Assembly: GCA_021771715.1 (NCBI GenBank) | Contig: JAETOO010000014.1 | Span: 62,001-126,000, forward strand | Source of the DNA: Oscillospiraceae bacterium | GTDB lineage: Bacteria; Bacillota; Clostridia; Lachnospirales; Lachnospiraceae | Length of the DNA: 64,000 nucleotides | Direction: 5' to 3' | Shown: positions 1 to 19,984 of the stretch, in pieces | How the letters are laid out: each line of letters begins with the position of its first letter | Position numbering within the stretch: the stretch's first letter is position 1 | Position numbers and translations under genes: made by a program | The notes under the pieces: generated by a model | Seen by the model: only the letters and a program-made list of their open reading frames with translations | The model's database searches: none | What the model was told of the DNA's origin: nothing

Positions 1-1508
1 ATCTTGGTTCATTCGCTGCACAACTGTCCGAATTTGGAGGTGCGCTTGCAAGTTATGCTAACTCCGTTTCTGGTATCGACGAAAGCACGATCGGTAAAAT
101 CGAAGCGTCGGCAGGAATCGGTAAAGCATTAATCGAAATGGCCGGAACTTTGGAAAATAGCGGCGGTCTTCTTCAAGCTTTCTTTGGTGAAACAGATTTA
201 TCAAGCTTTGGTTCTAATCTTGAAACGTTCGGCGGTAGTTTGAAGACTTATGCTGAGTCGGTAAAAGATATCGACACAACGGCTTTGAACAATGCAACGA
301 CAGCCGCAACAAACATGGCAGCCTTCTGTGACACTTTAAGTGGGATTGACGATGGTAGTGGGTGGTTCTCCGATTCCTATATCGAAGGATTTGGTGCAAA
401 TCTCACTTCGTTTGGAAGTAAATTTGCTGATTTTTACGATAAGATCAGCGGCATAGACACCGCAAAACTGGCAAGCTACATCACATCAATGACCCGGCTG
501 GTGGAATTTGCAAAAAGCACAGAAAATATAAAAGGAGACGGATTAGATTCCTTAGCCACCACCATGTCAACGCTCAGTTCGTCATTCGCGGAAGGTCTTT
601 CCAATTCCTCTGCAGATATGTCATCGGCAGCAGGCAACATGATGAGCGCTCTGACGGAGGGAATAACATCCAAATCAGCAGGATTGAGCTCTGCATTTTC
701 TGGAGTATTAATCTCGGCTGTGAACGATATTTCAAATGGTGCTCAGGCGTTTGTTGTGGCCGGCGCATCTCTGATCAGCAGTATGTGCTCGGGCGTCAAA
801 GAAAAAGGAGATAGTCTGTCGAGTTCCATCAGCAGTGCCGTACGTAGCGCAGTCAAAGTGGTTCGTGATTTCTACGACAGTATGAGTACGAACGGCTCAT
901 ATCTGGGCTCAGGTTTTATATCAGGAATCAACGCAAAGAAAACAGACGCCTACAACGCCGGCTATGCTCTTGGCGCCGCATCAGTACGAGGCGTAAAAGA
1001 TGGTGAGAATGCTCATTCCCCATCAAAGGACGGTGAAGAGGCAGGCGGATGGCTCGGCGAAGGATTCATTATCGGTATAAAGAGAATGGCGTCTGCTGTT
1101 TACAATACCGGTTATGATCTCGGTGACAGCGCAACATCAGCTATTTCATCCGCAGTTTCGAGAGCGGCTGACTATATCGGATCAGATATTGATTTCCAGC
1201 CGACAATCCGACCGGTTCTTGATTTGGACGGTGTTTCAGCAGGTGCAGGAACGATCAATCGTATGCTCAACGGCCAGCACTCGATTGGCCTTATGGGTAA
1301 CCTGAATGCGATCAGCGCGTCTATGTCGAATGGACGAAGAGGAGCGAACGATGATCTGATTTCAGAAATCCGGAACCTTGGGAAGAACATGAGCAAGCAA
1401 ACAGGCGACGTATATAATATCGATGGTGTGACCTACGATGATGGTACGAATATTGCAACAGCAGTGAAGTCTATAGTCCGGGCAGCGAAAGTGGAAAGGA
1501 GGAAGTGA
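1..1508 (+). CDS. Phage tail tape measure protein, C-terminal part (5' partial)
   Basis: The frame is open from base 3, so the gene begins before the window; the first in-frame ATG at 138 is internal. The product has repeated segments of the form FG..L..FG..L..Y...V..ID, long Ser/Ala/Gly-rich helical stretches, and near its C-terminus the HSPSKDGEEAG...GFIIGI pattern (about 1012-1080) that is common at the end of tape measure proteins of phages of Gram-positive bacteria. The tape measure sets tail length and reaches the cell membrane during DNA injection. It is followed directly by the tail-tip genes, which is the usual order in siphophages. Only the C-terminal part, about 500 residues, is visible. 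Confidence 0.85.
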   Translation, partial: LGSFAAQLSEFGGALASYANSVSGIDESTIGKIEASAGIGKALIEMAGTLENSGGLLQAFFGETDLSSFGSNLETFGGSLKTYAESVKDIDTTALNNATTAATNMAAFCDTLSGIDDGSGWFSDSYIEGFGANLTSFGSKFADFYDKISGIDTAKLASYITSMTRLVEFAKSTENIKGDGLDSLATTMSTLSSSFAEGLSNSSADMSSAAGNMMSALTEGITSKSAGLSSAFSGVLISAVNDISNGAQAFVVAGASLISSMCSGVKEKGDSLSSSISSAVRSAVKVVRDFYDSMSTNGSYLGSGFISGINAKKTDAYNAGYALGAASVRGVKDGENAHSPSKDGEEAGGWLGEGFIIGIKRMASAVYNTGYDLGDSATSAISSAVSRAADYIGSDIDFQPTIRPVLDLDGVSAGAGTINRMLNGQHSIGLMGNLNAISASMSNGRRGANDDLISEIRNLGKNMSKQTGDVYNIDGVTYDDGTNIATAVKSIVRAAKVERRK

Positions 1509-1509
1509 T

Positions 1510-3777
1510 ATGGCAAACAAGGCATGTACGGTGTCGAATGTGATACTAAATCTTCAAAATGGAACTGATCGTACTATGTATATGACGTGGTCCTTTTCGA
1601 AGAAGTATCTTGACCATTTCGTGCTGAAGTGGGAATACGATACTGGGAATGGCGTCTGGTTTATCGGAGCCAATGATGTGTCAACAACCGATCGCCAGTA
1701 CATATTCAATGCTCCTTCCAATGCTGCACGAGTTCGAGCTTGCATCAAACCGGTGTCTAAGACATACAAGAAAAACGGAAAAAAGAGATCTCGTTGGACG
1801 AGTCAATGGTGCGATGCTCAGTATTACACATTCCCGGATTCTCCATCTGCGAATCCGCTGCCGGTTCCATCAGTCCCATCAGTAACAATTAGCGGGTTTT
1901 CTTTGACGGCAGAAGTCAATGACTATGAAGCTCGGGTGCAGCAGATTGAGTTTCAGGTTGTTCAGAATGATCAAACTCTGGTTGCATCCGGAATAGGTAA
2001 CAAAGTAACAGATCACGCCGCTTTTTCCTGTAACGTAGCTGCAGGCGGGAGTTATAAGGTTCGGTGCCGTGGTCTCGGTAGCGGTCTCACAAGTGAATGG
2101 TCGGAATATTCCCAGAATGTAGGAACGATCCCGTCCACCCCAACGGGTATCACAGAATGTTACGGTCTGTCTGAGTCATCTGTAAGAGTTGGCTGGCAGG
2201 CCGTTTCTAATGCTACCAGTTATGAAGTCGAGTACACAACAAACGCAGATTACTTTGACAGCTCGAACGAAACGCAGACCATGACTGTGCAGGGCTCGGC
2301 CCAGCATGCCGAGGTTACGGGTCTGGATTCCGGAAAGACCTGGTTCTTCCGGGTAAGAGCAGTAAATGATAAAGGACAATCTGGTTGGACAGGAGCAGCC
2401 TCTGCGGTAATCGGTAAAACACCGTCCCCGCCGACAACCTGGTCGCTCACCACGACTGCTATGGTCGGAGAAACAGTGACTTTAAGCTGGGTGCATAATT
2501 CTGAGGACAGCTCGGAACAATCTGCAGCAGACCTGGAACTCATCGTGAATGGAGTAAGTCAGATAATTCCGATCAGTGGCAAGACCAGCACTTATGCACT
2601 TCAGACATCGTCCTACGCAGACGGTACGAAGGTGTATTGGCGGGTTCGGACGAAGGGTGCTATTCCAACATACAGCGAATGGTCTATGCAGCGGGTGGTT
2701 GATATTTACGCGCCGCCGGTTCTAACTGTTACGTTAGATTCTAATGTTTTAAGCTCGTTTCCGTTACGAGTTCATGTGTCTGCAGAACCCAAAACACAGA
2801 CCCCGATTGGATATTACTTGTCAATCACGCCAAAAACATCCTATGAAACAACTGATTTTTACGGGAAGACGGTTTGGATAAAGGCCGGCGAAACAGTGTA
2901 CTCGAAACACTATGATATTCGTGACAAAGCAGCGGTCTTTGAAATTACAGCGAGTGATGTGACTCTCGAGAACAATGTTGAGTATATCATCTCCTGTACT
3001 GTTGCTATGAGCACTGGTCTGACGGCATCAAACAATGTCAGCTTTTCAGCAAGTTGGACGGATGAGGATTTCGAATTGAATGCGGAAGTCGGCGTGGACA
3101 CAGATTCTTTGACTGCGTATGTTTGTCCGTTTTGCCAGGACGAAGCTGAGAACATAATTGAAGGGATACTGTTATCTGTATATCGGCGAGAGTTTGACGG
3201 GACATTTACAGAGTTGGCGAGGAACATCGAAAACGGCAAGAATATCACGATCACAGATCCGCATCCGGCTTTGGACTATGCCAGGTATCGGATTGTCGGC
3301 ATGTCGAAAGAAACCAGCTCGATCAGCTATTATGATCTTCCGGGTATTCCGGTCGGCGAGACAGCGATTGTGATCCAGTGGGATGAGGAGTGGTCGAACT
3401 TTGATGTAACAGAAGAGGCCGAGATGGTTGAACCTACCTGGGCCGGATCACTGGTAAAGTTCCCATACAACAATGATATTTCCGATGACTACAGTCCAGA
3501 TGTAGCTCTCGTGAACTACATAGGTCGGAGTCATCCGGTAAGCTATTACGGTACGCAGATTGGCGAGACTGCTACATGGAGTGCTGAAATACTCATAGAT
3601 GATGAGGACACACTGTATGCTCTGAGACGGCTTGCGAGATGGATGGGGGACTGCTATGTTCGAGAACCTTCCGGCAGTGGCTATTGGGCGAATGTCAAAG
3701 TGTCATTCAGTCGAAAACATTGTGCGCTGACCATACCGGTTACACTCAGTATCACAAGAGTAGAGGGAGGTGCGTGA
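1510..3777 (+). CDS. Phage tail protein with fibronectin type III domains
   Basis: 755 residues; a GGAGGAAG ribosome site sits 6 bases before the ATG, which almost touches the tape measure stop. The middle holds FN3-like modules: residues around 215-300 contain a typical W..V..A..YEVEY and WFFRVRAVN strand pattern, with related modules before and after. The last 110 residues (YIGRSHPVSYYGTQ onwards) look like the globular C-terminal part of distal tail/baseplate proteins. Position between tape measure and hub protein supports a distal tail role, with FN3 modules perhaps binding surface sugars. The exact family cannot be named from sequence reading alone. Confidence 0.75.
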   Translation: MANKACTVSNVILNLQNGTDRTMYMTWSFSKKYLDHFVLKWEYDTGNGVWFIGANDVSTTDRQYIFNAPSNAARVRACIKPVSKTYKKNGKKRSRWTSQWCDAQYYTFPDSPSANPLPVPSVPSVTISGFSLTAEVNDYEARVQQIEFQVVQNDQTLVASGIGNKVTDHAAFSCNVAAGGSYKVRCRGLGSGLTSEWSEYSQNVGTIPSTPTGITECYGLSESSVRVGWQAVSNATSYEVEYTTNADYFDSSNETQTMTVQGSAQHAEVTGLDSGKTWFFRVRAVNDKGQSGWTGAASAVIGKTPSPPTTWSLTTTAMVGETVTLSWVHNSEDSSEQSAADLELIVNGVSQIIPISGKTSTYALQTSSYADGTKVYWRVRTKGAIPTYSEWSMQRVVDIYAPPVLTVTLDSNVLSSFPLRVHVSAEPKTQTPIGYYLSITPKTSYETTDFYGKTVWIKAGETVYSKHYDIRDKAAVFEITASDVTLENNVEYIISCTVAMSTGLTASNNVSFSASWTDEDFELNAEVGVDTDSLTAYVCPFCQDEAENIIEGILLSVYRREFDGTFTELARNIENGKNITITDPHPALDYARYRIVGMSKETSSISYYDLPGIPVGETAIVIQWDEEWSNFDVTEEAEMVEPTWAGSLVKFPYNNDISDDYSPDVALVNYIGRSHPVSYYGTQIGETATWSAEILIDDEDTLYALRRLARWMGDCYVREPSGSGYWANVKVSFSRKHCALTIPVTLSITRVEGGA

Positions 3778-3778
3778 T

Positions 3779-4840
3779 ATGCCGGACTGGACAAAATCTA
3801 TGCAGCAAACCTTCGAATATTACGTGGTTGATCCTGATACATGGGGGAATGCATCAAAGCTTGACTGTGTGACAGAGTGCACGGTCGAGTGGGACGGCGA
3901 GAGTGCTACCTTTGGATCGGCGAGTATCAGTTGTACGGAGACTCTTGATGAATGCTATATAAGGGCGTATCTTATCACAATTCAAAATGGGGTGAAAGAG
4001 TCGTATCCGCTGGGGACTTTTATGGTAGAAACTCCTTCCGACACCTTTGACGGACGGAACCATACGATCAGTCTGGATGCGTATACTCCATTGCTTGAAT
4101 TGAAAGATAACTCGCCGCCGCTTGGTTACTCGATACCAAAGGGCGAGAACATCATGAATTATGGTGTGCGGTTGTCTCGAGAGAATTGCAGAGCTCCGGT
4201 TGTACCGGTCAGCAGCACAGAGACGCTTTCAAATGATTTTGTTGCGGAAACGGATGAGGCTTGGCTGTCTTATATTTCGGATCTGGTGGCGTGCGCGAAA
4301 TACCAGCCGTCCCTCGACGAGATGGGCCGTATTCTATTTGCACCAGTTCAGGACATAGCTTCTCTGCAGCCAGTCTGGACGTACAACGATGACAACAGCT
4401 CATTGTTATATCCGGATGTTAGTCTCGAGAGAGACATGTACGGAATCCCGAATGTTGTGGAAGTTTTATATTCTACATCTTCGGGATTTTATTATGCCAA
4501 AGTAGTGAACGACGATGAGACGAGCCCAATTTCCACGGTCAGGAGAGGCCGAGAGATCGTGCATCGCGTCGCAAATCCCACTTTTGCCGGCAACCCAACA
4601 CAAAGCCAGGTAGAGGAGTATGCGAGACAAACTCTGCGAAATCTTTCTTCATTTGAATATCGAGTGTCGTATTCGCACGGTTATTGCCCACCGCGCATTG
4701 GTGATTGCGTGAGACTCAACTACAAGCGGGCCGGACTGATTGACGTAAAAGCCAAAGTTGTGAGTCAGTCGATAAAGTGCGTTCCTGGGTGCCCGGTTTC
4801 TGAGACAGCTGTGTTTACTGTGAAATTGTGGAAGGGGTGA
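3779..4840 (+). CDS. Phage baseplate hub / tail-associated protein
   Basis: The ATG at 3779 is chosen over the GTG at 3770 because the AGGGAGG at 3764-3770 lies at proper spacing from it and would overlap the GTG. It overlaps the end of the preceding tail gene codons by a few bases. The 353-residue product starts MPDWTKSMQQTFEYYVVDP and resembles hub-type tail proteins found between distal tail proteins and tail fibres in Firmicutes phages (a compact beta-rich protein that closes the tail tube). No peptidase or lysozyme motif is seen. The function is inferred mostly from position. Confidence 0.6.
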   Translation: MPDWTKSMQQTFEYYVVDPDTWGNASKLDCVTECTVEWDGESATFGSASISCTETLDECYIRAYLITIQNGVKESYPLGTFMVETPSDTFDGRNHTISLDAYTPLLELKDNSPPLGYSIPKGENIMNYGVRLSRENCRAPVVPVSSTETLSNDFVAETDEAWLSYISDLVACAKYQPSLDEMGRILFAPVQDIASLQPVWTYNDDNSSLLYPDVSLERDMYGIPNVVEVLYSTSSGFYYAKVVNDDETSPISTVRRGREIVHRVANPTFAGNPTQSQVEEYARQTLRNLSSFEYRVSYSHGYCPPRIGDCVRLNYKRAGLIDVKAKVVSQSIKCVPGCPVSETAVFTVKLWKG

Positions 4841-4846
4841 TGAAAC

Positions 4847-7800
4847 ATGGAGCTGTCCTATGACCTTTTGAAACAATTCGCAAGGATAACAAATGACCAG
4901 CCTGCCGAGAAAAAAGAGCAGACGGTGTACGGTATCGTAAAGAAAATAGACGATGCTACGTATGTTAAGTTCGATGGTTCCGATTTATTGACCCCAGTCA
5001 ACTCTGCTACGGATGCAGAAGATGGAGATCGAGTTGGTGTTCTTATAAAGAATCACTCGGCAGATCTGCTGTGCAATTTTACATCACCGTCAGTCGGTAA
5101 CGCTCAATTCGGTGCGTACAAGGAAGACGTGATCAAGAAGTTCGACGCAGTCTACACGACATTTTTGACTGCAGAAAAGGCTGATTTGGCGTACGCGAAG
5201 ATTGGAAGTTTGGAAGCTACGAATGGTCGCATTGACACTCTGAGCGGTGATCTTGCGAACTACAAGGAAATTGTCGCTGGAAAGTTCACAGCCGCTGAGG
5301 GCCGGATCGACGTTTTAACCGGTGACTTTGCGAGCTACAAGACGATCGTTGCGGATAACTTCACCGCCGCAAATGGCCGGATCGACACTTTGAGCGGCGA
5401 CTTTGCTGACTATAAGGAGATCGTTGCAGATAACTTCACCGCTACGAATGGACAGATAACAAATCTCTCCGGTGAGTTCTCGAGCTTCCAGACCACCATG
5501 AGCCAAGAAATGATCACGGCTAAAGGCTGGATGCTTGAGGGGGCAATCGGAGATGCTCAGATTTCAAAAGTATCCGCGAATAAGCTCGGAGCCGGCACGA
5601 TCGACACAGCTATTGTCACCGTAGCCGGGACCGATGGCCGACTGCAGATCCAGGATAACACGATCCAGATCAAGGATGCAAACCGAGTCCGGGTACAGAT
5701 CGGTAAGGATGCCGGCGGGGACTACAGCATGTCTGTCTGGGACGCGTCAGGACAGCTGATCTGGGACGCCCTGGGAGCCACCGAGAACACTATCCAGCGT
5801 AAGATCATCCGGGATAGGATGGTGGCCGACGATGCTGCGATTCAGGCACTGAAAATTGACTTCCAGAGTTTTGATACGGCGCTTACTCAGCAGGGCGTGA
5901 CGATATCCGGTACCGTCGTGCAGGTGGGCAGTAAGACGCTGAACGTGGCACTGTCCGAGCAGACCCAGACTATTTCTGACAATTACACCAGCCTCAAGAA
6001 CTATACGGATACTGCCAAATCAGCAGCCATCTCTGTAGCGGCCAGCGACGCTACGACGAAGGCGAATAATGCGCTGAAAGGTGCAAAGGAATATGCGGAT
6101 GCTATTGAGATTGGCGGGAGGAATCTGATACATAACAGTACGTTCAAAAAGAATGGAGCATACTGGGGCATAAACAGCTGTATAGCATCATACGGTACAG
6201 ACGTTGCACTCGGCCGGTATATATGTTTTCATTCTGCTGCCGCTGGCGACTGTAATACAAACCGGATACATCAATATGCATTTGCCAGTGGCGGAAATCA
6301 TGTGGTAGGACAGACATATTCGCTTTCATTTTACGCTAAGACATCTTCGACCACAAAAATCCATGCTGGGAACGTGTACCATCTGATTCCGTTCGATGTG
6401 ACGACTGAGTGGAAAAAATATACAGTTTCGTATGAATCAAAAAATACTGGTTCATTGACGTTTTATGTTGACACAGCAAATGTTGATCTATATCTGTCGC
6501 AAATCAAACTCGAACTAGGTACCAAAGCCACTGACTGGACGCCAGCGCCGGAGGATATGGAAGCTGAACACCACACACATGCGGAACAGTTATCCTCGCA
6601 TGAAACACGTATCACAGCTAATGAAAATAGCATTAAGTTAAAAGTTGCGACGAGTGACTTTAACAGCTACAAGACCACCGTAAATGGCGAGCTGACATCT
6701 GCAAAGAGCCGACTGAGCACTGCAGAATCAAGCATCACAGCTATGCAGGGGAAGATTGCTCTGAAGGTGGAGCAGACGGATATTGATTCGGCGATGCAGA
6801 ATTTGCATATCGGCGGAAGGAATTTGTTACCGGAAACAAGATCCTTTGATGAATGCCGTGGTATGGCAAAAGTCGCCGAGACTTATCAAGATCTCACAGT
6901 TAGAGGAGGGACTCTTTCAGGTAGTCAGATTAGTGTTTGTCAATATGATTTTACAGGATTCAGTCTAGGAGACGTTTATACACTTTCTTTTTATGCAAAA
7001 GGGAATGCGACACAACTCCATGCTTTTTTCTATGGTGATACCGGATATGTGAAGGCAAAGACGATTGCCGTGAGTCAAGATGGAACCATTATGCATAATT
7101 CATATAGTGACGGGAATGCTTTGTTCCATGTAACAAACGAGTGGAAACGGTATTGGGTAACATGGCAACTAGACTTCACGGGAGACATAGGTGTACATAA
7201 ATATATACTACTTAGAACAGACGGAAGTTCCGCCGGCCAGAACGTATATGTATGTGGGATGAAACTCGAAAAAGGCACCAAAGCCACCGACTGGACGCCT
7301 GCGCCAGAGGATATCGACGCCTCCATCACAGCGGTAGACAACAAATTTGCCAACTACAGTACCACCTCCCAGATGCAGTCAGCGATCAACCTGGCAAAAG
7401 ATAGCATTACCAGTACAGTGTCGAAGACGTATGCGACGCAGACGTATGCAGATGGCATAAAGGCCACGGCTGACAGCGCAAAAAAAGAAGTTTACGCATC
7501 ATTTAGCGGAAATGGAGTCTCAAAGGCGTATTGTTTGCTTTGCCAGATTAAAACTAATCAAGCGTATATCAATACTCCAACTGTTATCGAAATTAATCAA
7601 CGTGGATATGGCTATTCGTTATGCGAAATAAAGTTTGCATCATCTAACAGTACCGATCCGGCATTATACAGCATACGAAAAACTGGTACACCACAATGGA
7701 GGATTGTAAAATCCGCGACCAGCACATGGGACGTTTACGTGAAAAAATCCGAATCATGGGATGCAATTACTGTGGTTGGATTCACAAAAGGTACGGTACC

Positions 7801-9703
7801 GTCGGTTACCTGGAAATGTTTGAACGCTGACCTTCCGAACGGGTCGACAGCTGCAACTCAGCTTGCTGGGCTGTATACAGTCGATAGTACGTCTGGGGGA
7901 ACAGCAGGTAGTGATGCTCTGATAACATCCGGAGCAGCCCATAGTGCAATATCTTCCGTTCAAACTATTGCCACACAGACAGCAGAAAAGTTTAACTGGA
8001 TTGTCAAATCTGGCACTAGCGCTACAGACTTCACCCTGACTGACCGGACAGCCCAACTGATCACAGAGAAGCTGACAATCAAAGACTCTACTGGTGCATC
8101 GACGATCATCTCCGGCGGGAAGATGGATATCAACAAGATATTTGCGCAGCACATCAATGCGACTGGGACGATACGAGGCGTGAAACTGGAAGGAGCGACG
8201 GGAAGCTTTTCAGGGAGCGTGACTACGTCGAATATTATTGCCACGGGTGGAAAGATTGCAAACTTTACTATCTCCGGGGGATATTTGTTTAATGGAATAT
8301 CCATTGGACAAGCTGGAAGTTGCGGAATTGGATGTGGGTCAGCACTTGGAGCCAATGATGATTGGATGTTTTGGGCTGGCAACGGATTGTTTAGAGTTGA
8401 TAAAAACGGACAAGCCTGGATGTCTAATGGTCATTTTACTGGGGATGTAAATTCCACTAGTTTGATTGCTGATTATGCAATCAAAATGAAAGCGTATGAT
8501 GGCGGTGTCGGAAGGCTGTTTTCTGTTGGCGAATCCATTGACGATCCGCGAGCTATATTTTTCAACATGGATGGGGCGTTTAACGCATTGCATATTAATA
8601 GCGCGGCGGTCAATATTGACCAGGATCTTTATGTAGAAAACTTACATGCTACCAACATTGACGGAGGTCATACAACTATAAACAATGGTGCGAATCAAAC
8701 ACCATTGGTCGTAGTCGGATGCTCTAACGGAGAGAGCTCTATTCGTTATTGCTATTATAACGATTACAACAATGCCTGGGTAGTAGGTCCTGGAGCAGGT
8801 ACCGCTGACATGAACAAGTTTGGTTTTTATCACTGTCCGACATCGGCGACCAAGGCATACATTAACTATAACGGGGAAATCGTATCGCTGCTGGGCGGAC
8901 TATCCCAATTCCGGGCAGTGAACGGAAACTACGGTTTTATGATCCGTAACGACGGAGCGAATACATATTTCCTTCTTACTGGAAATGGTGATCCATATGG
9001 TGGCTGGCGAAATACATTCCCGTTTATTATCGGCAATGGAGATGGGATGGTTCAGATCCAAACAGGACTTATCTTCCCCACTAACGTAGGCGTGCAATCT
9101 CCAACCGGTCCTATTCTTCGCACATTCAACGCGACGAATTATTCGAACCTTACCGCTGTTGGAAATACGTCTTCTCAGGCTTCAATTTACACCAGTAACC
9201 GAGTGTGGAAAAACGGGTCAACATCAACATATTTCTCTACCACTTCATCATCGGATAAGCGGCTAAAAGAGGCAGCCGGCGATATGGCAAGTTATGAGTC
9301 GTTTTTCGAAGCACTGCGCCCTGTGCCGTTCAAGTATCACGAAGGTCTATATGACGCACCGAACCGGAAACCAAAAATCCAGTGGGGATTTTATGCGCAA
9401 GATGTCGTAGACGCTTTTGAAAGAAACGGCATCAACTGGCACGATCAGGAGCTAGTGGTGGTAGAAGACGGCGATCTGACCGCGGAGGAGCTGAAATACG
9501 TTCAGCCGGGCACGTTGCTCAAAATGAACTACCAAAACCTGACAGCACTGAACACCCACATGATCCAAAAACATTCAAAGCAAATCAGTCGCATCGAATC
9601 CCGGCAGGAGTCCGAGCAGAACCAGATCAGTGAATTACGAAACACAATAGCTGATTTACGTGCTGAAGTAGCTGAGCTCCGTCGAATGATTTATGCGGCA
9701 TAA
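4847..9703 (+). CDS. Phage tail fibre / receptor-binding protein with S74 autoprocessing chaperone
   Basis: 1618 residues, the largest protein here. Residues 124-223 are four 25-residue repeats (RID.LSGDF..YK.IVADNFT type) likely to form a coiled stalk. Two modules start with GGRNL and end with TKATDWTPAPED (about 6109-6560 and 6809-7314); this jelly-roll-like unit recurs in Firmicutes phage tail proteins and is thought to bind carbohydrate. Close to the end, SSDKRLKE (about residues 1467-1474) is the S74 signature, with the Ser/Lys dyad that cuts off the C-terminal intramolecular chaperone after trimer folding. A coiled coil (ISRIESRQESEQNQ..) follows. Expected to decide host range. Confidence 0.88.
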   Translation: MELSYDLLKQFARITNDQPAEKKEQTVYGIVKKIDDATYVKFDGSDLLTPVNSATDAEDGDRVGVLIKNHSADLLCNFTSPSVGNAQFGAYKEDVIKKFDAVYTTFLTAEKADLAYAKIGSLEATNGRIDTLSGDLANYKEIVAGKFTAAEGRIDVLTGDFASYKTIVADNFTAANGRIDTLSGDFADYKEIVADNFTATNGQITNLSGEFSSFQTTMSQEMITAKGWMLEGAIGDAQISKVSANKLGAGTIDTAIVTVAGTDGRLQIQDNTIQIKDANRVRVQIGKDAGGDYSMSVWDASGQLIWDALGATENTIQRKIIRDRMVADDAAIQALKIDFQSFDTALTQQGVTISGTVVQVGSKTLNVALSEQTQTISDNYTSLKNYTDTAKSAAISVAASDATTKANNALKGAKEYADAIEIGGRNLIHNSTFKKNGAYWGINSCIASYGTDVALGRYICFHSAAAGDCNTNRIHQYAFASGGNHVVGQTYSLSFYAKTSSTTKIHAGNVYHLIPFDVTTEWKKYTVSYESKNTGSLTFYVDTANVDLYLSQIKLELGTKATDWTPAPEDMEAEHHTHAEQLSSHETRITANENSIKLKVATSDFNSYKTTVNGELTSAKSRLSTAESSITAMQGKIALKVEQTDIDSAMQNLHIGGRNLLPETRSFDECRGMAKVAETYQDLTVRGGTLSGSQISVCQYDFTGFSLGDVYTLSFYAKGNATQLHAFFYGDTGYVKAKTIAVSQDGTIMHNSYSDGNALFHVTNEWKRYWVTWQLDFTGDIGVHKYILLRTDGSSAGQNVYVCGMKLEKGTKATDWTPAPEDIDASITAVDNKFANYSTTSQMQSAINLAKDSITSTVSKTYATQTYADGIKATADSAKKEVYASFSGNGVSKAYCLLCQIKTNQAYINTPTVIEINQRGYGYSLCEIKFASSNSTDPALYSIRKTGTPQWRIVKSATSTWDVYVKKSESWDAITVVGFTKGTVPSVTWKCLNADLPNGSTAATQLAGLYTVDSTSGGTAGSDALITSGAAHSAISSVQTIATQTAEKFNWIVKSGTSATDFTLTDRTAQLITEKLTIKDSTGASTIISGGKMDINKIFAQHINATGTIRGVKLEGATGSFSGSVTTSNIIATGGKIANFTISGGYLFNGISIGQAGSCGIGCGSALGANDDWMFWAGNGLFRVDKNGQAWMSNGHFTGDVNSTSLIADYAIKMKAYDGGVGRLFSVGESIDDPRAIFFNMDGAFNALHINSAAVNIDQDLYVENLHATNIDGGHTTINNGANQTPLVVVGCSNGESSIRYCYYNDYNNAWVVGPGAGTADMNKFGFYHCPTSATKAYINYNGEIVSLLGGLSQFRAVNGNYGFMIRNDGANTYFLLTGNGDPYGGWRNTFPFIIGNGDGMVQIQTGLIFPTNVGVQSPTGPILRTFNATNYSNLTAVGNTSSQASIYTSNRVWKNGSTSTYFSTTSSSDKRLKEAAGDMASYESFFEALRPVPFKYHEGLYDAPNRKPKIQWGFYAQDVVDAFERNGINWHDQELVVVEDGDLTAEELKYVQPGTLLKMNYQNLTALNTHMIQKHSKQISRIESRQESEQNQISELRNTIADLRAEVAELRRMIYAA

Positions 9704-9729
9704 AGATCACATAATAGGAGGACAAATCT

Positions 9730-10002
9730 ATGTTAAAGAACATGAAAAAGAACATCACACTTACTGCGTCATCCATCGTCACCATTACAACTGGCGATAC
9801 CACAAAAGACGTGGTCGCTGAGAGCTACTCAGCAACTATCAACAGCGACAACCCGAACGACATAAACATCTCGAGCTGGCAGGAGAACAAAGCTGTATAT
9901 AAGGCAAATCGGACACAGTGTCGGCAGGATTCGGCTGAGTTTGAGGATGCCGCATACGCAATCCAGGACGAGTTGATCGCAGAGGCGGCTAAGACAGAAT
10001 AA
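9730..10002 (+). CDS. Small phage protein of unknown function
   Basis: 90 residues with a clean AGGAGG site 9 bases before the ATG. It lies between the tail fibre and the lysis region, a place where siphophages of Firmicutes often code short accessory tail or XkdX-like proteins. The sequence begins with a basic stretch (MLKNMKKNITL), then Thr/Ser-rich beta-like sequence, then an acidic helix (QDSAEFEDAAYAIQDELIAE). No signal peptide, membrane segment or recognisable motif is present. I do not recognise the family; a structural or tail-assembly role is only a guess from position. Confidence 0.6.
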   Translation: MLKNMKKNITLTASSIVTITTGDTTKDVVAESYSATINSDNPNDINISSWQENKAVYKANRTQCRQDSAEFEDAAYAIQDELIAEAAKTE

Positions 10003-10056
10003 GGAGGGATACATTTGCAAATTAGAGCACCGGCCGCGTAAGCGGTCTTTTTTTTT
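10001..10056 (+). promoter_or_regulatory. Possible leader-peptide attenuator: SD, 8-codon ORF and overlapping terminator
   Basis: AAGGAGGG at 10001-10008 is followed 6 bases later by TTG (10015) opening an 8-codon frame (MQIRAPAA) whose TAA stop (10039-10041) lies in the loop of the hairpin at 10032-10047. Nine T residues follow. A ribosome ending on this stop would cover the hairpin. This is a reading of the layout, not a known family. Confidence 0.35.
10032..10056 (+). terminator. Intrinsic terminator between tail fibre and lysis region
   Basis: GGCCGC, GTAA loop, GCGGTC, then nine T residues at 10048-10056. It lies in the 98-base gap before the first lysis-region gene, so it may end or weaken late tail transcription. 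Confidence 0.75.
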
Positions 10057-10100
10057 ATGCATTTTTATATTGAGGCTTTTCGCCAGAGGAGGGCAGGCCG

Positions 10101-10448
10101 ATGGAGATTATAGAATACGTGCAGGCACACTGGGTAACCTGGTTATTTGCGGCAATAACAGGTGTATTTGGCTTTGGGTACAGAATCCTGTCCGCGAGAA
10201 TTAAGCAACACCAGGCAGAACAGGAGCGGCAGCGAAAAGAACAGGAGGCCCTGAAGGAAGGGGTTCTGGCGTTACTGCATGATCGTCTGTATCAGGGGTG
10301 TCGCTTCCACATTCACAACGGGAAAATCGCAGATGATGAAATGAAAAACATGGAATATTTGTACAAGGGTTATCACGCCCTCGGAGGTAATGGCACGGGG
10401 ACGGAGTTGTACGAGCGGATTAAGAAATTACCTTTGAAGGAGGATTAA
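10101..10448 (+). CDS. Phage membrane protein of the lysis region
   Basis: 115 residues with an AGAGGAGGG site. One membrane segment near the N-terminus (about residues 8-28, VTWLFAAITGVFGFGYRI) is followed by a charged helix rich in Gln/Glu/Lys/Arg that looks like a coiled coil, then EGVLALLHDRLYQGCRFHI, a segment I have seen in small membrane proteins next to holins in Firmicutes phages. It could be a holin-like or antiholin-like partner, or a membrane anchor for an unidentified lysis factor. It is 5 bases from the next gene, so the two are probably translated from one mRNA. Confidence 0.55.
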   Translation: MEIIEYVQAHWVTWLFAAITGVFGFGYRILSARIKQHQAEQERQRKEQEALKEGVLALLHDRLYQGCRFHIHNGKIADDEMKNMEYLYKGYHALGGNGTGTELYERIKKLPLKED

Positions 10449-10453
10449 AGCAT

Positions 10454-10708
10454 ATGGATAAGAAAACGAATAAGACAGTAAATAAGGCAGCAAATAAGAC
10501 GGAGCCAGTTACGAAGCCGACTCTTGTGGCAAGGCAGGAGTTTCTCGACAATCTGGTGGCTCTGATCAACGGGTCTGGACTTCCGCTTATCGTAGTGCAG
10601 CCGGTACTCGATGGAGTAATGGGCGATGTGCAGCGGGCGATCCGGCAGCAGTACGAGAACGAGAAGGCGCAGTATGAGAGTGCAGTTGCGGCTGAGAACG
10701 GTAAGTAA
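10454..10708 (+). CDS. Small phage protein next to the holin, unknown function
   Basis: 84 residues, with an AAGGAGG site before the ATG. The first 25 residues are Lys/Asn/Thr-rich (DKKTNKTVNKAANKTEPVTK) and probably disordered; the rest is a predicted helical domain (ARQEFLDNLVALINGSGLPLIVVQPVLDGVM) ending in a charged helix. No membrane segment is long enough to be convincing. It lies between two likely lysis-region membrane proteins. I do not recognise the family. Confidence 0.5.
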   Translation: MDKKTNKTVNKAANKTEPVTKPTLVARQEFLDNLVALINGSGLPLIVVQPVLDGVMGDVQRAIRQQYENEKAQYESAVAAENGK

Positions 10709-10778
10709 AAGCATCACGAGGACAAGTATGTGACGTGATATAAAGATGCGAGACAACATTTTTAAGGAGGTTTGTGCT

Positions 10779-11000
10779 ATGAAGTTGAACGACAAGACAT
10801 ATGATATTCTGAAGTGGGTTGCCCAGTATTTGCTGCCGTCGGCCGGTACATTATATTTTGCGCTGGCCGGCATCTGGGGATTTCCGTTCGGTGAGCAGAT
10901 CGTAGGCACAATTACAGCAGTCGACACATTCCTTGGTGTGATCCTCGGAATCAGTTCGATGCAGTACGACAAGACGGGCGGTCATCTCGACGCGAAGTAG
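10779..11000 (+). CDS. Phage holin (Dp-1-like)
   Basis: The start at 10779 is fixed by AAGGAGG at 10764-10770; an upstream in-frame start at 10746 has no ribosome site. The 73-residue product has two hydrophobic segments (about 12-33 and 38-60) separated by a short turn with charged ends, and a pattern (KLNDKTYDILKW...EQIVGTITAVDTFLGVILGIS) very like the small holins of the streptococcal Dp-1 type. Holins form the membrane lesion that lets the endolysin reach the wall. No endolysin gene lies beside it, which is unusual. Confidence 0.7.
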   Translation: MKLNDKTYDILKWVAQYLLPSAGTLYFALAGIWGFPFGEQIVGTITAVDTFLGVILGISSMQYDKTGGHLDAK

Positions 11001-11058
11001 AACACCAATATTTTGATGGTATCCAGGGTTTGGCGAAAAAGTTTGTAGGAGGGATTTC

Positions 11059-11220
11059 GTGGACCGTGCAGCAGACAATCAAAGCATTGATGAGATTCAT
11101 GTCGATAAAATGCACTTTCGTGTGGTCAATAAACATCCACAACAATCAGAGAAATCGAACGAACAGAAGAAACAGTGCATGCGCAACGAGCTTTACCATG
11201 TATTTGAGAAATATTGGTAG
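11059..11220 (+). CDS. 53-residue phage protein with GTG start upstream of the integrase
   Basis: This frame is short and starts with GTG, so it is easy to miss. AGGAGGG (11047-11053) precedes the GTG at 11059 with 5 bases between. The product (VDRAADNQSIDEIHVDKMHF..) is hydrophilic and ends in a helix-like MRNELYHVFEKYW. Small proteins with a similar C-terminal end are found just before large serine recombinases in Clostridia elements, so a recombination-directionality or accessory role is possible but unproven. A longer frame over the same DNA (from 11030) lacks a good start and gives an odd basic protein; it is judged spurious. Confidence 0.45.
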   Translation: MDRAADNQSIDEIHVDKMHFRVVNKHPQQSEKSNEQKKQCMRNELYHVFEKYW

Positions 11221-11259
11221 TTGCGCAAAAAAGCTCTGTTTTCGCGGGTTATTTTGTGG

Positions 11260-11265
11260 TATACT
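11260..11265 (+). promoter_or_regulatory. Possible promoter of the recombinase gene (-10 box)
   Basis: TATACT preceded by TGTGG resembles an extended -10 box; the -35 position (around 11237-11242) is poor. It lies 48 bases before the recombinase ATG, so the gene may be expressed independently of the late operon. Confidence 0.35.
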
Positions 11266-11313
11266 GTCTTCTGTGGAGAGTGACTGGCTCACACGCGTTC
11301 GGAGGTATGTGAT

Positions 11314-12834
11314 ATGAGATATCCGATAGACGCGTTGTACGCGAGACAGTCAGTTGACAAGCAAGACAGTATTTCCATAGAAAACCAGATTGATTATTGT
11401 AAGTACGAGACTCGCGGTGGTGATTATGAAACTTACATAGACAGAGGATTCAGCGGAAAGAACACGAATCGCCCGGCGTTTACCCAAATGATGAATGACA
11501 TAAAGGCCGGTAAGATAAAGAGGGTAATCGTTTATAAACTGGATCGAATCAGCCGTTCCATTTTGGACTTCTCGAACATGATGGAAGTATTTCAAAAGCA
11601 TCATGTCGAATTTGTTTCCTCGACAGAGAAGTTTGACACGTCGACACCCATTGGTAATGCAATGCTTAACATCAGTATTGTGTTTGCCCAGCTCGAAAGA
11701 GAGACTATTCAAAAACGAGTGGCGGATGCATATGCAACAAAGAGCAAAAAGGGGCATTATATGGGAGGGAGAGTGCCTTATGGATTTCGGCTGGAAAGTT
11801 GTATCCTTGACGGGGTGCACACATCACGCTTTGTGCCCGATCCGGTTGAGATAGAAGCCATTAAATTAGTTTATGAGCTATATTCTCAGCCGGAATATAC
11901 GTTGGGTGCAGTTATGAGAGAACTGCTAAAACGAGGGTTTAAAGAAAGGCACAAAGGATCCTGGTGCACAGCAAGAATAAGTGAGATCGTTAGAAATCCT
12001 GTATATGTAAAGGCCGATGCTGACATTTATAATTTTTATCTGAGTCAGGGTTCAAACCTCATTAACCCGGTATCAGATTATATTGGTACAAATGGTGTTT
12101 TCTTATATAAAGGCTACAACAGCGATAAGAAAAAACTTAAGCAATATGATTTGGTCGGGCGTGATGTTGTGCTTGCACCGCACGCTGGGGTTATTGATTC
12201 TGCGACGTGGTTGAAATGTCGGTACAAAATTATGAACAACCGCCAATCTGCCAGCACATGCAAAGGACGTCGATCCTGGCTCACCGGGAAGGTAAAATGC
12301 AAAAAGTGCGGTTATGCCTATCAGGTGACGACATCCAATACCAAAGCGGGACGATACTTTCAATGTACGGGTGCTCGTTATTCCATAAGGTGTAGAGGAG
12401 CCGGTCACACGATATACGCAAGTGTGCTTGAAAACTATATACTTCAGGAAATGGAGAAAGAACTTGCAAAGCTTGATTATCTTTCTGAAGAATTGACTCA
12501 GGCCACGACAAATGAAAATAATCACATAAAAATTGATATTGCCGAGATTGACAAAGAGATTGATTCGTTATTACATAAGGTTTCTGGTGCAAATGAAACT
12601 TTGATGGTGTACATCAACAAGCGAATTGAAGAGCTTGATGCGAAGAAGAACGAATTGATTAAAAAGGCTGCAGAATCTACAATACGTAAACCGGAAAAGG
12701 ATCTGATGCAGATTACGGATTGCATTTCAAAATGGTCTGAGTTGAGTCTCGAGGATAAGCAACGGATATGTGATATTTTGATAAAAGTCGTATATATCGG
12801 CGAAGACACGATCGAAATAGAATGGAATATTTAA
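11314..12834 (+). CDS. Large serine recombinase (prophage integrase)
   Basis: 506 residues; GGAGGTATGTGAT precedes the ATG. The resolvase domain occupies residues 1-150: YARQSVDKQDSIS gives catalytic Ser13, with the Arg cluster YKLDRISRSILDF and a GNAMLNI...ERETI segment. A recombinase domain follows (GRVPYGF...), then a zinc ribbon (CKKCGYAYQV ... YFQC.. and IRCRG, about residues 328-370) and a C-terminal coiled coil. This is the full domain set of an integrase of the large serine family, which recombines short non-identical attP and attB sites without host factors. It lies at the prophage edge beside the interrupted cotJC, so it should be the enzyme that made and could reverse that insertion. 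Confidence 0.95.
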   Translation: MRYPIDALYARQSVDKQDSISIENQIDYCKYETRGGDYETYIDRGFSGKNTNRPAFTQMMNDIKAGKIKRVIVYKLDRISRSILDFSNMMEVFQKHHVEFVSSTEKFDTSTPIGNAMLNISIVFAQLERETIQKRVADAYATKSKKGHYMGGRVPYGFRLESCILDGVHTSRFVPDPVEIEAIKLVYELYSQPEYTLGAVMRELLKRGFKERHKGSWCTARISEIVRNPVYVKADADIYNFYLSQGSNLINPVSDYIGTNGVFLYKGYNSDKKKLKQYDLVGRDVVLAPHAGVIDSATWLKCRYKIMNNRQSASTCKGRRSWLTGKVKCKKCGYAYQVTTSNTKAGRYFQCTGARYSIRCRGAGHTIYASVLENYILQEMEKELAKLDYLSEELTQATTNENNHIKIDIAEIDKEIDSLLHKVSGANETLMVYINKRIEELDAKKNELIKKAAESTIRKPEKDLMQITDCISKWSELSLEDKQRICDILIKVVYIGEDTIEIEWNI

Positions 12835-13446
12835 CTTTTCAATCAAGGGTTTGTGAGTGGAAATAGCTATTTTATCCACTTTACAAGCCCTTTTCTTTTT
12901 GCTTACATAGCTACGGAACGCTTCACCGAACCTCTGAAAATGCACGATCTCCCTGGCGCGCAGGAACCGGATCGGGTCTGCGACGGCAGGGTCTTTCACC
13001 AGTCGGAGGATGTTGTCGTACGTCAGCCGGGCTTTCTGCTCCGCCGCGAGATCCTCGAAGAGATCCGCCGTGGGATCTCCGGTGGACTGGAATTCGGACG
13101 CGGAGAAGGGGAAGCCGCCCGCGGACTGCGGCCAGACGCCGATGGTGTGGTCGGCATAGTACGGCGCGAAGCCGGCCTTCTCCAGCTCCTCCGCGGACAG
13201 CCCGCGCGTGAGCTGGTGGACAATCGTCGAGACGATCTCGAGGTGGGCGAGCTCTTCGGTGCCCACGTCCGTAAGGACGGCGGCCGCGGTGCGGTTCGGG
13301 GCGGTGTAGCGCTGCGAGAGATAGCGCATGGAGGCGCCTACCTCGCCGTCAGGTCCGCCGTACTGGCTGATAATGATCGAAGCGAGCTTCGCGTTTGGTG
13401 TCGTAATATTGACCGGATATTCCAGCCGTTTCTCATAATTCCACAT
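12727..13446 (-). CDS. cotJC: Spore coat protein CotJC (manganese-catalase-like), 3' end replaced by prophage DNA
   Basis: The true start is the ATG at 13446-13444, which overlaps the cotJB stop (TAATG). Residues 1-177 match CotJC: PNAKLASIIISQYGGPDGE, the GTEELAHLE and REIVHFQ metal-ligand motifs (Glu/His of a ferritin-like dimanganese site), and YYADHTIGVWPQSAGG. CotJC is normally about 190 residues and ends 10-20 residues after FGEALR. Here the frame instead runs about 62 more codons through phage DNA, antisense to the end of the recombinase gene. The metal-binding core is complete, so a chimeric protein could still fold; the natural C-terminus would return on excision. Confidence 0.88.
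   Translation of the reverse strand: MWNYEKRLEYPVNITTPNAKLASIIISQYGGPDGEVGASMRYLSQRYTAPNRTAAAVLTDVGTEELAHLEIVSTIVHQLTRGLSAEELEKAGFAPYYADHTIGVWPQSAGGFPFSASEFQSTGDPTADLFEDLAAEQKARLTYDNILRLVKDPAVADPIRFLRAREIVHFQRFGEAFRSYVSKKKRACKVDKIAISTHKPLIEKLNIPFYFDRVFADIYDFYQNITYPLLILETQLRPF
12845..12900. terminator. Strong hairpin at the prophage edge, probable bidirectional terminator
   Basis: AAGGGTTTGTGAGTGGA is followed after a 13-base loop by TCCACTTTACAAGCCCTT and then TTTTCTTTTT. The stem is about 17 pairs with few mismatches. It ends the recombinase transcript and would also interfere with cotJ transcription coming from the other side. Confidence 0.8.
12905..12925. other. Probable prophage attachment site (one att half, in cotJC)
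   Basis: On the - strand the conserved CotJC sequence VHFQRFGEA stops here and continues into A/T-rich codons (FRSYVSKKKRACKVDK) with no CotJC resemblance. The recombinase gene ends 70-90 bases away. The exact crossover dinucleotide cannot be set without the other prophage end. Confidence 0.6.
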
Positions 13447-14057
13447 TAGCAGGCGCCTCCTTCCCACGGCCAGGGCTGCTGCATCCATTCCCAGGAACGG
13501 CTGCACGAATCGGTTATTGTGTCGGCGGTCAGCGGTCCGTAGAGCCGCTCGTACTCCTTGAGCGCGGCCTTGCGCTTCCGGGTGTGCAGGTGGAAATAGC
13601 GAAGCGCCTCCTCGTCACACGGATGTGTATCGAGGAACAGCAGCGCCTCGTAAGCCCCGAAGCTCACCTCGTTGATAAACGCGAGCAGCTTCTGGCGGTC
13701 GCCCGTCGGAAGCGTGAAATCGCCGTCGGCCCTTGCAGATGCACATCCGCAGGACGCAGAGTCGCGCTGTGTATCCCTTGTCATGCCTTGTCTGTCATGG
13801 TCATGGCAGGCGTGCGCATCCCGCATCATGTTCTGCCTTTCGTTTTCACGGCAGTTCTGCGCATTTCTTGCCATGTCCTGTCTGTCATGGTCGTGGCAGG
13901 TCTGCGCATTTCTTGCCATACTCTGCCTGTCGCGCTCGCAGCAGTTCTGTGCAGTTCTCGCCATACTCTGTCTGTCGCGCTCGCAGCAGCCCTGTGTGCG
14001 CTGCATCGGGCGGGGATTGTTCATCGGCTGGTTCATGCAGGTCTGTCTGTTTACCAT
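13446..14057 (-). CDS. cotJB: Spore coat protein CotJB with a repeat-expanded N-terminus
   Basis: The C-terminal 85 residues are a standard CotJB: KLLAFINEVSFGAYEALLFL, DTHPCDEEALRYFHLH, YGPLT and the end WMQQPWPWE. CotJB is normally under 100 residues, but this protein has 203. Residues 24-98 are five tandem 15-residue units, each starting with C or CC and carrying RQ.M.R.A.. (for example CCERDRQSMARNAQT), followed by a CGCAS linker. It overlaps cotJA by 7 bases and cotJC by one base, so the three genes form the classic cotJABC operon, which in Bacillus depends on the mother-cell sigma factor SigE. Confidence 0.92.
   Translation of the reverse strand: MVNRQTCMNQPMNNPRPMQRTQGCCERDRQSMARTAQNCCERDRQSMARNAQTCHDHDRQDMARNAQNCRENERQNMMRDAHACHDHDRQGMTRDTQRDSASCGCASARADGDFTLPTGDRQKLLAFINEVSFGAYEALLFLDTHPCDEEALRYFHLHTRKRKAALKEYERLYGPLTADTITDSCSRSWEWMQQPWPWEGGAC
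13764..13988 (-). repeat. Five 45-bp tandem repeats coding Cys-rich units in CotJB
   Basis: In-frame repeats covering residues 24-98 of CotJB. Units 1 and 2 are nearly identical, the rest diverge but keep the leading Cys and the DRQ/ERQ and MAR/MMR/MTR positions. Confidence 0.9.
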
Positions 14058-14272
14058 ACCTTACCTCCTCTCCCGCAGAACGGCTTGTGCAGTCCCGGGA
14101 AAATTGTCCCGCACTGCAGTGCCCTGCAAAGCTCAAAGGTGGTTTCCCAGTGCTGATACGGCACGTACCCCATCGCGAGCGGGGCGTTTGATTCATGGAT
14201 ATGATGATAGATCGCGTCGACCCTGGCATTTGCCGGGCCGCATCCGCAGTCTGTACCTCGCAAATCTGGCAT
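14051..14272 (-). CDS. cotJA: Spore coat associated protein CotJA
   Basis: 73 residues; GGAAAGGAG lies before the ATG on the - strand. The conserved CotJA region is clear: LAMGYVPYQHWETTFELCRALQCGTIFPGLHKPF. The first 30 residues contain CGCG and His residues and are longer than in short CotJA proteins. First gene of cotJABC, transcribed away from the SEDS gene. Expected in the inner coat of the spore, where the CotJ proteins act together; CotJA and CotJC interact in Bacillus. Confidence 0.93.
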   Translation of the reverse strand: MPDLRGTDCGCGPANARVDAIYHHIHESNAPLAMGYVPYQHWETTFELCRALQCGTIFPGLHKPFCGRGGKVW

Positions 14273-14311
14273 ATATGCTCCTTTCCTGTAAAAAATCCCG
14301 TCTTCCCTATC

Positions 14312-14341
14312 AGAATATGCGTCCGAAAAGAAAATGACATT
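14312..14341 (-). promoter_or_regulatory. Possible SigE-type promoter of cotJABC
   Basis: On the - strand CATATTCT (14319-14312) resembles the SigE -10 box, about 15 bases after a weak ATGTCA at the -35 position. It is 40 bases from the cotJA start. Weak evidence by itself; the SigE link comes from the Bacillus operon. Confidence 0.3.
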
Positions 14342-14345
14342 CTAC

Positions 14346-14374
14346 TGGAAAATCCAGAACAGATATGGTATGAT
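14346..14374 (+). promoter_or_regulatory. SigA-type promoter of the SEDS gene
   Basis: TGGAAA, 17 bases, TATGAT with a TGG extended -10. It ends 46 bases before the ATG at 14421. Confidence 0.5.
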
Positions 14375-14420
14375 AGCCGGGTAGCGCAGAATTTGACAGA
14401 AACGATGGGAAGGATTGTTT

Positions 14421-15641: not shown

Positions 15642-15845
15642 AAAAATCAGAAGAAAAGCGAGAAATCGCTTTCCGATAGAGACGGTCTTGAGGTCTGTGG
15701 CGCGCAGCCGCGGCCTCGCCGAATCGAGTACCCTGTTGTAAGCAACGGGGTATTTGATCCTCGCAGCAGTTGCCAAATATCCATGCAGGCATGGCTACTT
15801 GGCTTGTTGTTCGCGGGAATATTATGACAGACAGGAGAGAGAAAT
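15642..15845. repeat. Intergenic region with two strong hairpins upstream of gltX
   Basis: The 204-base gap has TACCCTGTTG TAAG CAACGGGGTA (15730-15753, 10 pairs with one G-U) and GCCAAATATCCATG ... CATGGCTACTTGGC (15771-15802, about 14 pairs with wobbles). Neither is followed by a T run. No T-box motif is seen. It may be a dispersed palindromic repeat or a structured leader of gltX. Confidence 0.45.
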
Positions 15846-17312: not shown

Positions 17313-17317
17313 CAGGG

Positions 17318-19144: not shown

Positions 19145-19152
19145 GAGCGAAA

Positions 19153-19178
19153 GGGGAGGGTGCCGAAGCGCCCTCCCC
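19153..19178. terminator. Hairpin between convergent helicase and DUF1292 genes
   Basis: GGGGAGGGTGC, CGAA loop, GCGCCCTCCCC. The 11-pair stem is very stable but T runs on either side are poor, so it may act with Rho or as a 3' stabiliser. Confidence 0.55.
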
Positions 19179-19197
19179 GAAACTGATTTTGCAATCC

Positions 19198-19551
19198 TTA
19201 TTCTTCTGTTTCATCCTCTGCCACGAGCTCATCGTACTCGAGGGAATCGAGCCACTCGTCAAAGCCCTCAGATGCGGCCTCGTACTCGTCGTCATTTTCG
19301 ATATTTTCCAGTACCGGAGCGCCGTTCTCCTGAGTGAAGCGGTAGAGATAGACCTCCCCGTCCTCATTTTTCCCATTTTCATCAAGCGGAAGCAGGGCAA
19401 TGTACTCGTGGCCGGCTGCCTCGTAGATCGTGAGAATCGAGCATTCCACTGTCTCATCATTGTCGAGCGTCAGGGTGATCGTAGCCTTGGAACAGTCTTC
19501 TGCAGATCCGCAGGTCTCGCAGCTTCCGCTGCATGCTTCAAAATCGCTCAT
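19198..19551 (-). CDS. DUF1292 (YrzB-family) protein
   Basis: The start is the ATG at 19551-19549 with GAGAGGTATTT before it; the frame extends upstream but without a ribosome site. 117 residues. The first 20 contain CSGSCETCGSAEDC, a possible metal-binding cluster, then the DUF1292 core ATITLTLDNDETVECSILTIYEAAGHEYIALLP...EVYLYRF, and a very acidic tail ending DETEE. The family is widespread in Firmicutes and its biochemical role is unknown. In many genomes a DUF1292 gene sits near ruvX (yrqF) and a Fur-like gene, but here it stands alone facing the helicase gene. Confidence 0.88.
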   Translation of the reverse strand: MSDFEACSGSCETCGSAEDCSKATITLTLDNDETVECSILTIYEAAGHEYIALLPLDENGKNEDGEVYLYRFTQENGAPVLENIENDDEYEAASEGFDEWLDSLEYDELVAEDETEE

Positions 19552-19664
19552 TTGTAAATACCTCTCTTTGGATAGTCTGCGCAGTCTGGGTACGGGCGAT
19601 TGTGCCGGTACAGCAGCCGCTGTCCCTACTTTACCAGAAATAAATGTAAAAGGCAAGGCATAAT

Positions 19665-19896: not shown

Positions 19897-19984
19897 GGAA
19901 TATCAAAAAAAATGAGAAAGTGCTGGGAAAAGTGGCGAAAAGATGATATACTGATCCTACATTACGTTTATTGGAGAGTTGATT

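Follow-up and report, generated by a model that had tools for sequence, protein, structure and literature searches.

The 64,000-nucleotide stretch studied here (the window) is G000:C30:62001-126000, a part of contig C30 of the Lachnospiraceae genome G000. It holds the spore coat genes cotJA, cotJB, and cotJC, the last of which is interrupted by a prophage (Table 1). The cotJC match to the Mn-catalase/CotJC family is normal through the residues FGEA, which end at codon 176, and the frame thereafter runs into element DNA. An initial annotation had proposed that cotJC is interrupted by a prophage carrying a large serine recombinase, that the gene is normal for about 177 codons, and that the recombinase gene ends 70 to 90 bases away. 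This description held up. Both junctions were located, phage genes and recombinase domains were matched, the change occurs after codon 176, and the recombinase stop codon is 85 bases from the core of the right attachment site (attR).

Table 1. Features of the cotJC locus and the adjoining part of the prophage, in window coordinates
Feature	Position	Strand	Remarks
cotJA	14051..14272	-	PF11007; upstream of cotJC
cotJB	13446..14057	-	PF12652; upstream of cotJC
cotJC 5' part, codons 1-176 to core end	12920..13446	-	Host gene; Mn_catalase E 2e-46
attR core GGTTCGGTGAAGC	12920..12932 (contig G000:C30:74920-74932)	-	attL (left attachment site) partner at C30:11178-11190, outside the window
Continuation of the truncated cotJC frame into element DNA (read-through tail)	12727..12919	-	63 codons and stop
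Large serine recombinase (integrase), 506 amino acids	11314..12834	+	Convergent with cotJC; PF00239, PF07508, PF13408 (Resolvase, Recombinase, Zn-ribbon)
Small gene, 53 amino acids, GTG start, candidate recombination directionality factor	11059..11220	+	Just upstream of the integrase
Phage holin (Dp-1 type)	10746..11000	+	PF16938; directly upstream of the 53-amino-acid small gene
Right-hand 12.9 kb of the 63.7-kb prophage	1..12919	+	Tail, receptor-binding-like, holin, and integrase genes; 50.8 kb more leftward to attL

Because the element runs off the left edge of the window, we searched the rest of the contig with the C terminus of CotJC from an intact relative. The missing 3' end was found at C30:11090-11194, on the same strand as the 5' part. 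It matched the intact relative over 34 residues with 91% identity (E 2e-18), a sequence match far beyond chance. The 13-bp core GGTTCGGTGAAGC lies at the start of this fragment and is common to both junctions, which gives an element length of 63,742 bp. The initial annotation had suggested looking for exactly such a far prophage end, with the missing codons and a short shared core. It had also put the loss at only the last 10 to 20 codons, which was too low, because the displaced end comprises 31 codons (LRSVQEDLDAKNFYAFNPSFDAPVECPPCKA). Both halves are in frame and without stops. When the flanks were joined at the core on paper, they gave an in-frame CotJC of 207 residues that continues FGEALRSVQEDLDAKNFYAFNPSFDAP like its intact relatives, so excision would restore the natural end, as had been predicted. 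Relatives without an element at this site have the normal C terminus, and no prophage-free relative had the altered one. The metal-binding core was also intact, as claimed: the five residues that we take to be the manganese ligands (E35, E65, H68, E136, and H169, with positions from alignment to solved Mn-catalases) are all in the 5' part. By its sequence, the window element is a prophage, and its exact removal would restore cotJC. Read from the sequence strings, its putative phage attachment site, attP, would have a dyad, ACTACGG-N14-CCGTAGCT, around the core.

A search of G000 with E values up to 10 found no other CotJC-like protein besides the detached 3' end and a stray 115-bp cotJC piece. 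This piece (L033:9570-9684 on contig G000:C30, outside the window) has at most four mismatches to codons 69-107. It is inverted and lies about 1.5 kb beyond attL, between ATPase-like and kinase-like genes. It is possibly a relic of an earlier element or of a rearrangement.

Among the frames picked between and around the element ends, 71 of 84 are on the plus strand. Ten element proteins were scanned. Eight could be assigned to named phage families (DNA polymerase, helicase, terminase, portal, head protease, major tail, endolysin, and tape measure), and the remaining two matched families of unknown function. Further matches were to a holin and a tail/receptor-binding-like protein. The packaging, head, tail, lysis, and replication genes of an intact temperate prophage were all present; by gene content, the element is a full-size temperate phage. 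As in elements of the skin and SPbeta class, a sporulation gene is split, the recombinase is carried by the element at one end, and short direct repeats would restore the gene. No relatives of the integrase at 60% identity or more were found among 50,697 phage records (the best listed was about 31%), none were confirmed in a single scan of viral contigs, and Rfam had no match in window positions 1-20000.

An earlier look at 60 relatives had shown separated cotJC pieces in many of them. For a survey, we drew 298 genomes of the family with at least 90% completeness, and 189 of these had cotJC. Complementary pieces were present in 76 genomes, with the gene split at no fewer than one of four positions. 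With G000, the total is at least 77 of 189 (about 41%). This is a lower bound because match rows were read in detail for 99 of the 189 (those with weak or multiple matches or a single-contig genome), while the other 90, G000 apart, were known by best E value, match count, and part of the rows. An automatic sort recovered 75 of these 76 genomes. A full-length copy was lacking in 56 of the 75, and in 12 the gene was occupied at two or more sites. There were 89 complementary pairs. For 55 of them the two pieces were on the same contig, and all 55 were on one strand in the right order; the other 34 pairs were on different contigs. Five single-contig genomes (G112, G336, G347, G381, and G385) had cotJC splits. 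Pieces on one contig were spaced from 1.6 kb (G406) to 86.7 kb (G112) apart, plus one pair at 117.6 kb (G320). In the window's genus, 6 of 30 genomes with at least 90% completeness had complementary pieces (G000, G003, G005, G017, G018, and G022). Pieces were also found in other families of the order (G039, G045, G048, G051, G057, and G058). In G051, cotJC is apparently in four pieces, which are not all on one contig and have one unclear join.

Two control genes were counted in the same 298 genomes as genomes with more than one match, which is an upper bound for splits. The gene for ribosomal protein S3, rpsC, which is similar in length to cotJC, was found in 284; 6 of these gave two or more matches, and two (G323 and G346) gave a very weak single match. 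The mother-cell gene spoIVA, more than twice as long, was found in 201, with more than one match in 4 and one weak single match (G187). The upper bound is therefore about 2% for both; of the three genes compared, splitting is specific to cotJC. (G071 had six ribosomal protein S3 matches, the most in the draw, possibly caused by contamination, which is listed as 6%.)

The crossover points form four clusters: site A at codons 28-33, site B at codons 60-66 (with two sub-sites), site C at codons 133-136, and site D at codons 172-176. Every site overlaps a manganese-ligand codon or is within three codons of one, and all four fall where the protein is well conserved. An insertion at site A, B, or C interrupts the catalytic domain, and the pieces examined remain open and conserved. 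Pairs were joined automatically at shared bases, with the join point picked among shared runs by the best CotJC score; 39 of 42 pairs yielded a clean product in frame. The cores were 5 to 15 bp in 31 of these clean joins and only 2 to 4 bp in 8. The three failures were G000, which was mis-anchored and joins cleanly when anchored on the 13-bp core; G202, in which one codon was lost; and G005, for which a second 3' copy with a stop was picked (the first copy joins cleanly). In a separate joining set, which had four genomes in common with the first, 13 of 16 pairs were clean (the others being G005_B2, G051_B, and G045_C).

The detached pieces evolve like intact genes. Pairwise differences fell mainly on the third codon position: for positions 1, 2, and 3, respectively, they numbered 556, 351, and 1212 among 15 detached site-D tails, compared with 504, 351, and 1180 among 15 intact tails. 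The detached site-A 5' pieces gave 530, 296, and 1413, compared with 558, 318, and 1550 for intact genes. Five detached 5' pieces from the window's genus had 97 synonymous and 5 nonsynonymous single-base codon changes. The counts were made over non-independent pairs, and some of the signal could be older than the insertions; they give no sign of decay.

Some elements are very small. Those at site D in G266 (2,190 bp), G095 (2,569 bp), and G202 (2,734 bp) have a full-length recombinase with a small gene directly upstream, and G095 and G202 have one further short frame each. An element of 2 to 3 kb has room for little beyond the recombinase. Of the 15 site-D recombinases, 13, among them the one in the window, have a related small gene upstream; it was not recognized in G405, and in G290 the upstream region is outside the fetched locus. 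At the equivalent position, other small genes were seen by eye for the site-C recombinases and for some of those at site B. The three small proteins scanned, including the one in the window, had no match in Pfam or PHROGs, and the predicted fold of the candidate directionality factor was poor (mean predicted local distance difference test score of 67), with one C-terminal helix. By its position and size, the 53-amino-acid protein is probably the best candidate for a directionality factor. A sigma-E-like site reached by none of 60 shuffles was found in 1 (G266) of 13 site-D upstream regions. A block, GTACTTG-N8-CATARAAT, was clear upstream of the small gene in G003, G327, G238, G333, and G338, partial in G095, G202, and G266, and absent from the window; as a signal, it is only suggestive.

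We listed the recombinases at cotJC junctions (54 rows, including two repeats). The distance to a cotJC piece was at most 100 bp for 43 of the 52 distinct large serine recombinases and 168 to 2672 bp for the other nine. A tree of 62 rows, with just ten outside rows, shows how they group and does not address independent arrival at cotJC. The 15 site-A rows formed one supported group, as did the five site-C rows. Site B had two groups and one stray long branch. The 15 site-D rows, including the window integrase, grouped weakly (58/38) next to ten sister recombinases. There are thus five distinct recombinase groups, each tied to its site. Ten relatives of the window integrase, from ten other genera, adjoin cotJC at the same position; the distance is at most 100 bp for nine of them and 627 bp for the tenth. 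The sister integrases (42 to 47% identity) had no cotJC piece in loci with at most 1.5 kb per side, and no common target gene was seen by eye. Because the same gene is occupied by five recombinase groups at four sites, and some elements are nearly recombinase-only, the window element is one of a widespread class of elements that intervene in cotJC.

The sporulation-intervening elements named in PMC10747680 and PMC5595907 sit in sigK, spsM, spoVFB, gerE, and yabG. A close parallel is SPbeta in Bacillus subtilis, a prophage that splits the late spore envelope gene spsM and restores it by precise excision during sporulation (PMC4191935). A title cited in PMC5595907 names its integrase, the large serine recombinase SprA, and the factor SprB. 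The window element differs in its gene, host lineage, and recombinase, in the four occupied sites of cotJC among relatives, and in a sporulation timing that we infer. The skin elements in sigK of B. subtilis and Clostridioides difficile also combine a serine recombinase and a directionality factor with a mother-cell gene, and the C. difficile factor, CD1234, has 53 amino acids (PMC10747680). However, skin targets a sigma factor gene, whereas the target here is a structural coat catalase and the window element is a full-size prophage. The elements gin in gerE, vfbin in spoVFB, and yin in yabG are likewise in single sporulation genes, none of them cotJC, and elements of about 2 kb or several elements per gene, as seen here, do not feature in the available accounts of them (PMC5595907, PMC10747680). 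Two manganese catalase coat genes of C. difficile, cotCB and cotD, are mother-cell genes that depend on SigK (PMC3789822), and their products are named CotJC1 and CotJC2 in PMC11222575. The nearest published link between a prophage and a CotJC-like gene that we found is phi027 of C. difficile. Its attR adjoins the CotJC-like manganese catalase gene cotG (CDR20291_1465), and its spontaneous excision is known; in the passages on phi027, cotG is downstream of attR and adjacent to it, and is not described as interrupted and restored (PMC11222575, PMC12122855). A survey of large serine recombinases (PMC10083194) also reported distantly related recombinases at one conserved target gene. The targets named there are competence-related and prolyl-isomerase genes, and the words catalase, spore, and cotJC are absent from its main text. 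Our literature searches covered sporulation-intervening elements, and cotJC with prophages, recombinases, Lachnospiraceae, and manganese catalase. Judged by title and the start of the abstract, no cotJC-intervening element was among the matches listed; subscription papers and preprints were mostly outside the search, so this is no proof of novelty.

We consider it probable that the cotJC prophage is precisely excised in the sporulating mother cell, which would restore CotJC. A 63.7-kb temperate phage integrated via its own large serine recombinase at a bacterial attachment site, attB, inside cotJC at codons 172-176. This left the 176-codon 5' part behind cotJA and cotJB and cut off the 31-codon 3' part. 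The same recombinase, with a directionality factor that is probably the upstream 53-amino-acid protein, would then excise the phage in sporulating mother cells. Because the mother cell dies, nothing would be lost to the phage, and complete CotJC could be made for the coat. Excision in the mother cell is likely by analogy with SPbeta and spsM, and it is suggested by the class of gene, the conserved pieces, and the nearly cargo-free elements. The initial annotation had raised developmental regulation of the element as a possibility, and its interpretation is supported in part. Lytic and sporulation excision of the window element may coexist, as in SPbeta. (The G000 host has spoIVA, and its best SigK-family matches fall below the family cut-off.) A broader proposal, for which our confidence is just short of even, is that cotJC of the Lachnospiraceae is habitually split and is rebuilt in every mother cell during sporulation, through one to three serine-recombinase excisions in series. 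In this view, the smallest elements would be DNA-level introns that have shed almost all of their cargo and persist because the host gene is read solely in a doomed cell, and the window prophage would be the phage-bearing end of the series.

Several observations weigh against excision in the mother cell. A full-length cotJC copy is also kept in 19 of the 75 split genomes from the automatic sort. The mother-cell gene spoIVA is hardly ever split; therefore, mother-cell status alone is not sufficient. The window integrase points against cotJC, and among the 52 recombinases 29 have the same orientation as cotJC and 23 the opposite. (Co-directional 2-kb elements had given us the idea that read-through from the cotJ operon is a general trigger; with orientation mixed, it cannot be, and the idea was dropped.) The recombinase frames are shortened in the small elements of G406, G375, G188, G381, and G220, and that of G321 has two stops by alignment, so these elements may be decaying. 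No sigma-E or sigma-K site upstream of the window small gene or integrase rose above shuffles, and both genes follow the holin gene, a position that suggests ordinary phage late expression. The last two points, together with the full-size phage gene set, also fit an ordinary temperate phage for which cotJC is a conserved, dispensable landing site. Such a phage would be excised solely on lytic induction, and lysogens would make spores with truncated CotJC or none, a defect that they would tolerate. The truncated protein might even keep function, given the five ligand residues in the 5' part. Conserved coding sequences are often attB sites for serine recombinases (PMC10083194). Furthermore, C. 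difficile cotCB and cotD insertional mutants lose catalase activity and have no significant coat defect, as cited in PMC11222575; the homologous catalases are dispensable for coat formation, and cotJC may therefore simply be dispensable as well. However, the site-D elements of 2.2 to 2.7 kb have no room for phage structural genes, yet they occupy the same codons and preserve the frame. The pieces examined at sites A, B, and C are open and conserved even though the catalytic domain is interrupted there, and a split frequency of about 41% for cotJC contrasts with about 2% for each control gene. On balance, we regard lytic excision alone as a serious but less probable account, at roughly one chance in three.

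It is very unlikely that cotJC is being lost, with the insertion as a step of decay and the 3' fragment as a relic. The stray inverted piece 1.5 kb beyond attL and a few relatives with stops or extra half-copies would fit such a loss. However, the G000 halves are stop-free and in frame, and the differences in detached pieces are distributed as in intact genes. The dispensable homologues and the short cores led us to lower slightly our estimates for mother-cell excision and for habitual splitting and to raise those for a purely lytic phage and for decay. Least probable of all is an assembly artefact or chance similarity at draft-contig ends, even though most of the surveyed genomes are drafts and many complementary pairs are on different contigs. 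The window element is wholly inside one 188-kb contig, every same-contig pair is right in strand and order, single-contig genomes are split, and the control genes rarely are. We rejected this explanation on these grounds. Excision in the mother cell is the reading that we prefer.

At least 4 in 10 of the cotJC-bearing genomes surveyed in one family have this one spore coat gene split, and the splits occur at each metal-ligand motif. Several distant recombinase groups take part, and up to three elements are apparently in one cotJC. If excision is developmental, cotJC would be a natural system for studying the conversion of phages into harmless developmental switches, the reasons why a gene can safely be split in the mother cell, and the co-evolution of a recombinase and its directionality factor. 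The cotJC elements also supply many sets of recombinases and attachment sites. For annotation, caution is needed because CotJC may be called absent or truncated in genomes that are able to make it.

Several minor observations were also made. G005, G066, and G126 have extra copies of the cotJC 3' part (about codons 57-204) close to the gene, whether split or intact (L059:1047-3857, L061:2171-2611, and G126:C68:14663-18631, respectively), and these look like alternative 3' cassettes that are being kept. In G028 (L069:3059-4964), a second, more distant cotJC-like gene has a 5' part that ends at site B, and the recombinase beside it is almost identical to the site-B recombinase of G005 (L059:10993-12898). 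The 4.1-kb site-D element of G003 carries, at L054:3495-5494, an XRE regulator and an ImmA/IrrE-type peptidase (both by Pfam) and a PIN-like protein (by eye, with no Pfam match). These genes are divergent from the integrase and are possibly an addiction or regulation module. The sister group of the window integrase (L164-L178; G098, G112, G190, G214, G318, G348, and others) has a small upstream protein of the same kind, and several of its downstream flanks share TGTGTAGTCCCTTGTAAACTGTACTT, possibly part of an attachment site. Finally, the N-terminal half of CotJB (window 13730-14057, minus strand), outside the Pfam CotJB domain, has repeated Cys/His-containing motifs, MARxAQxCxxxDRQ.

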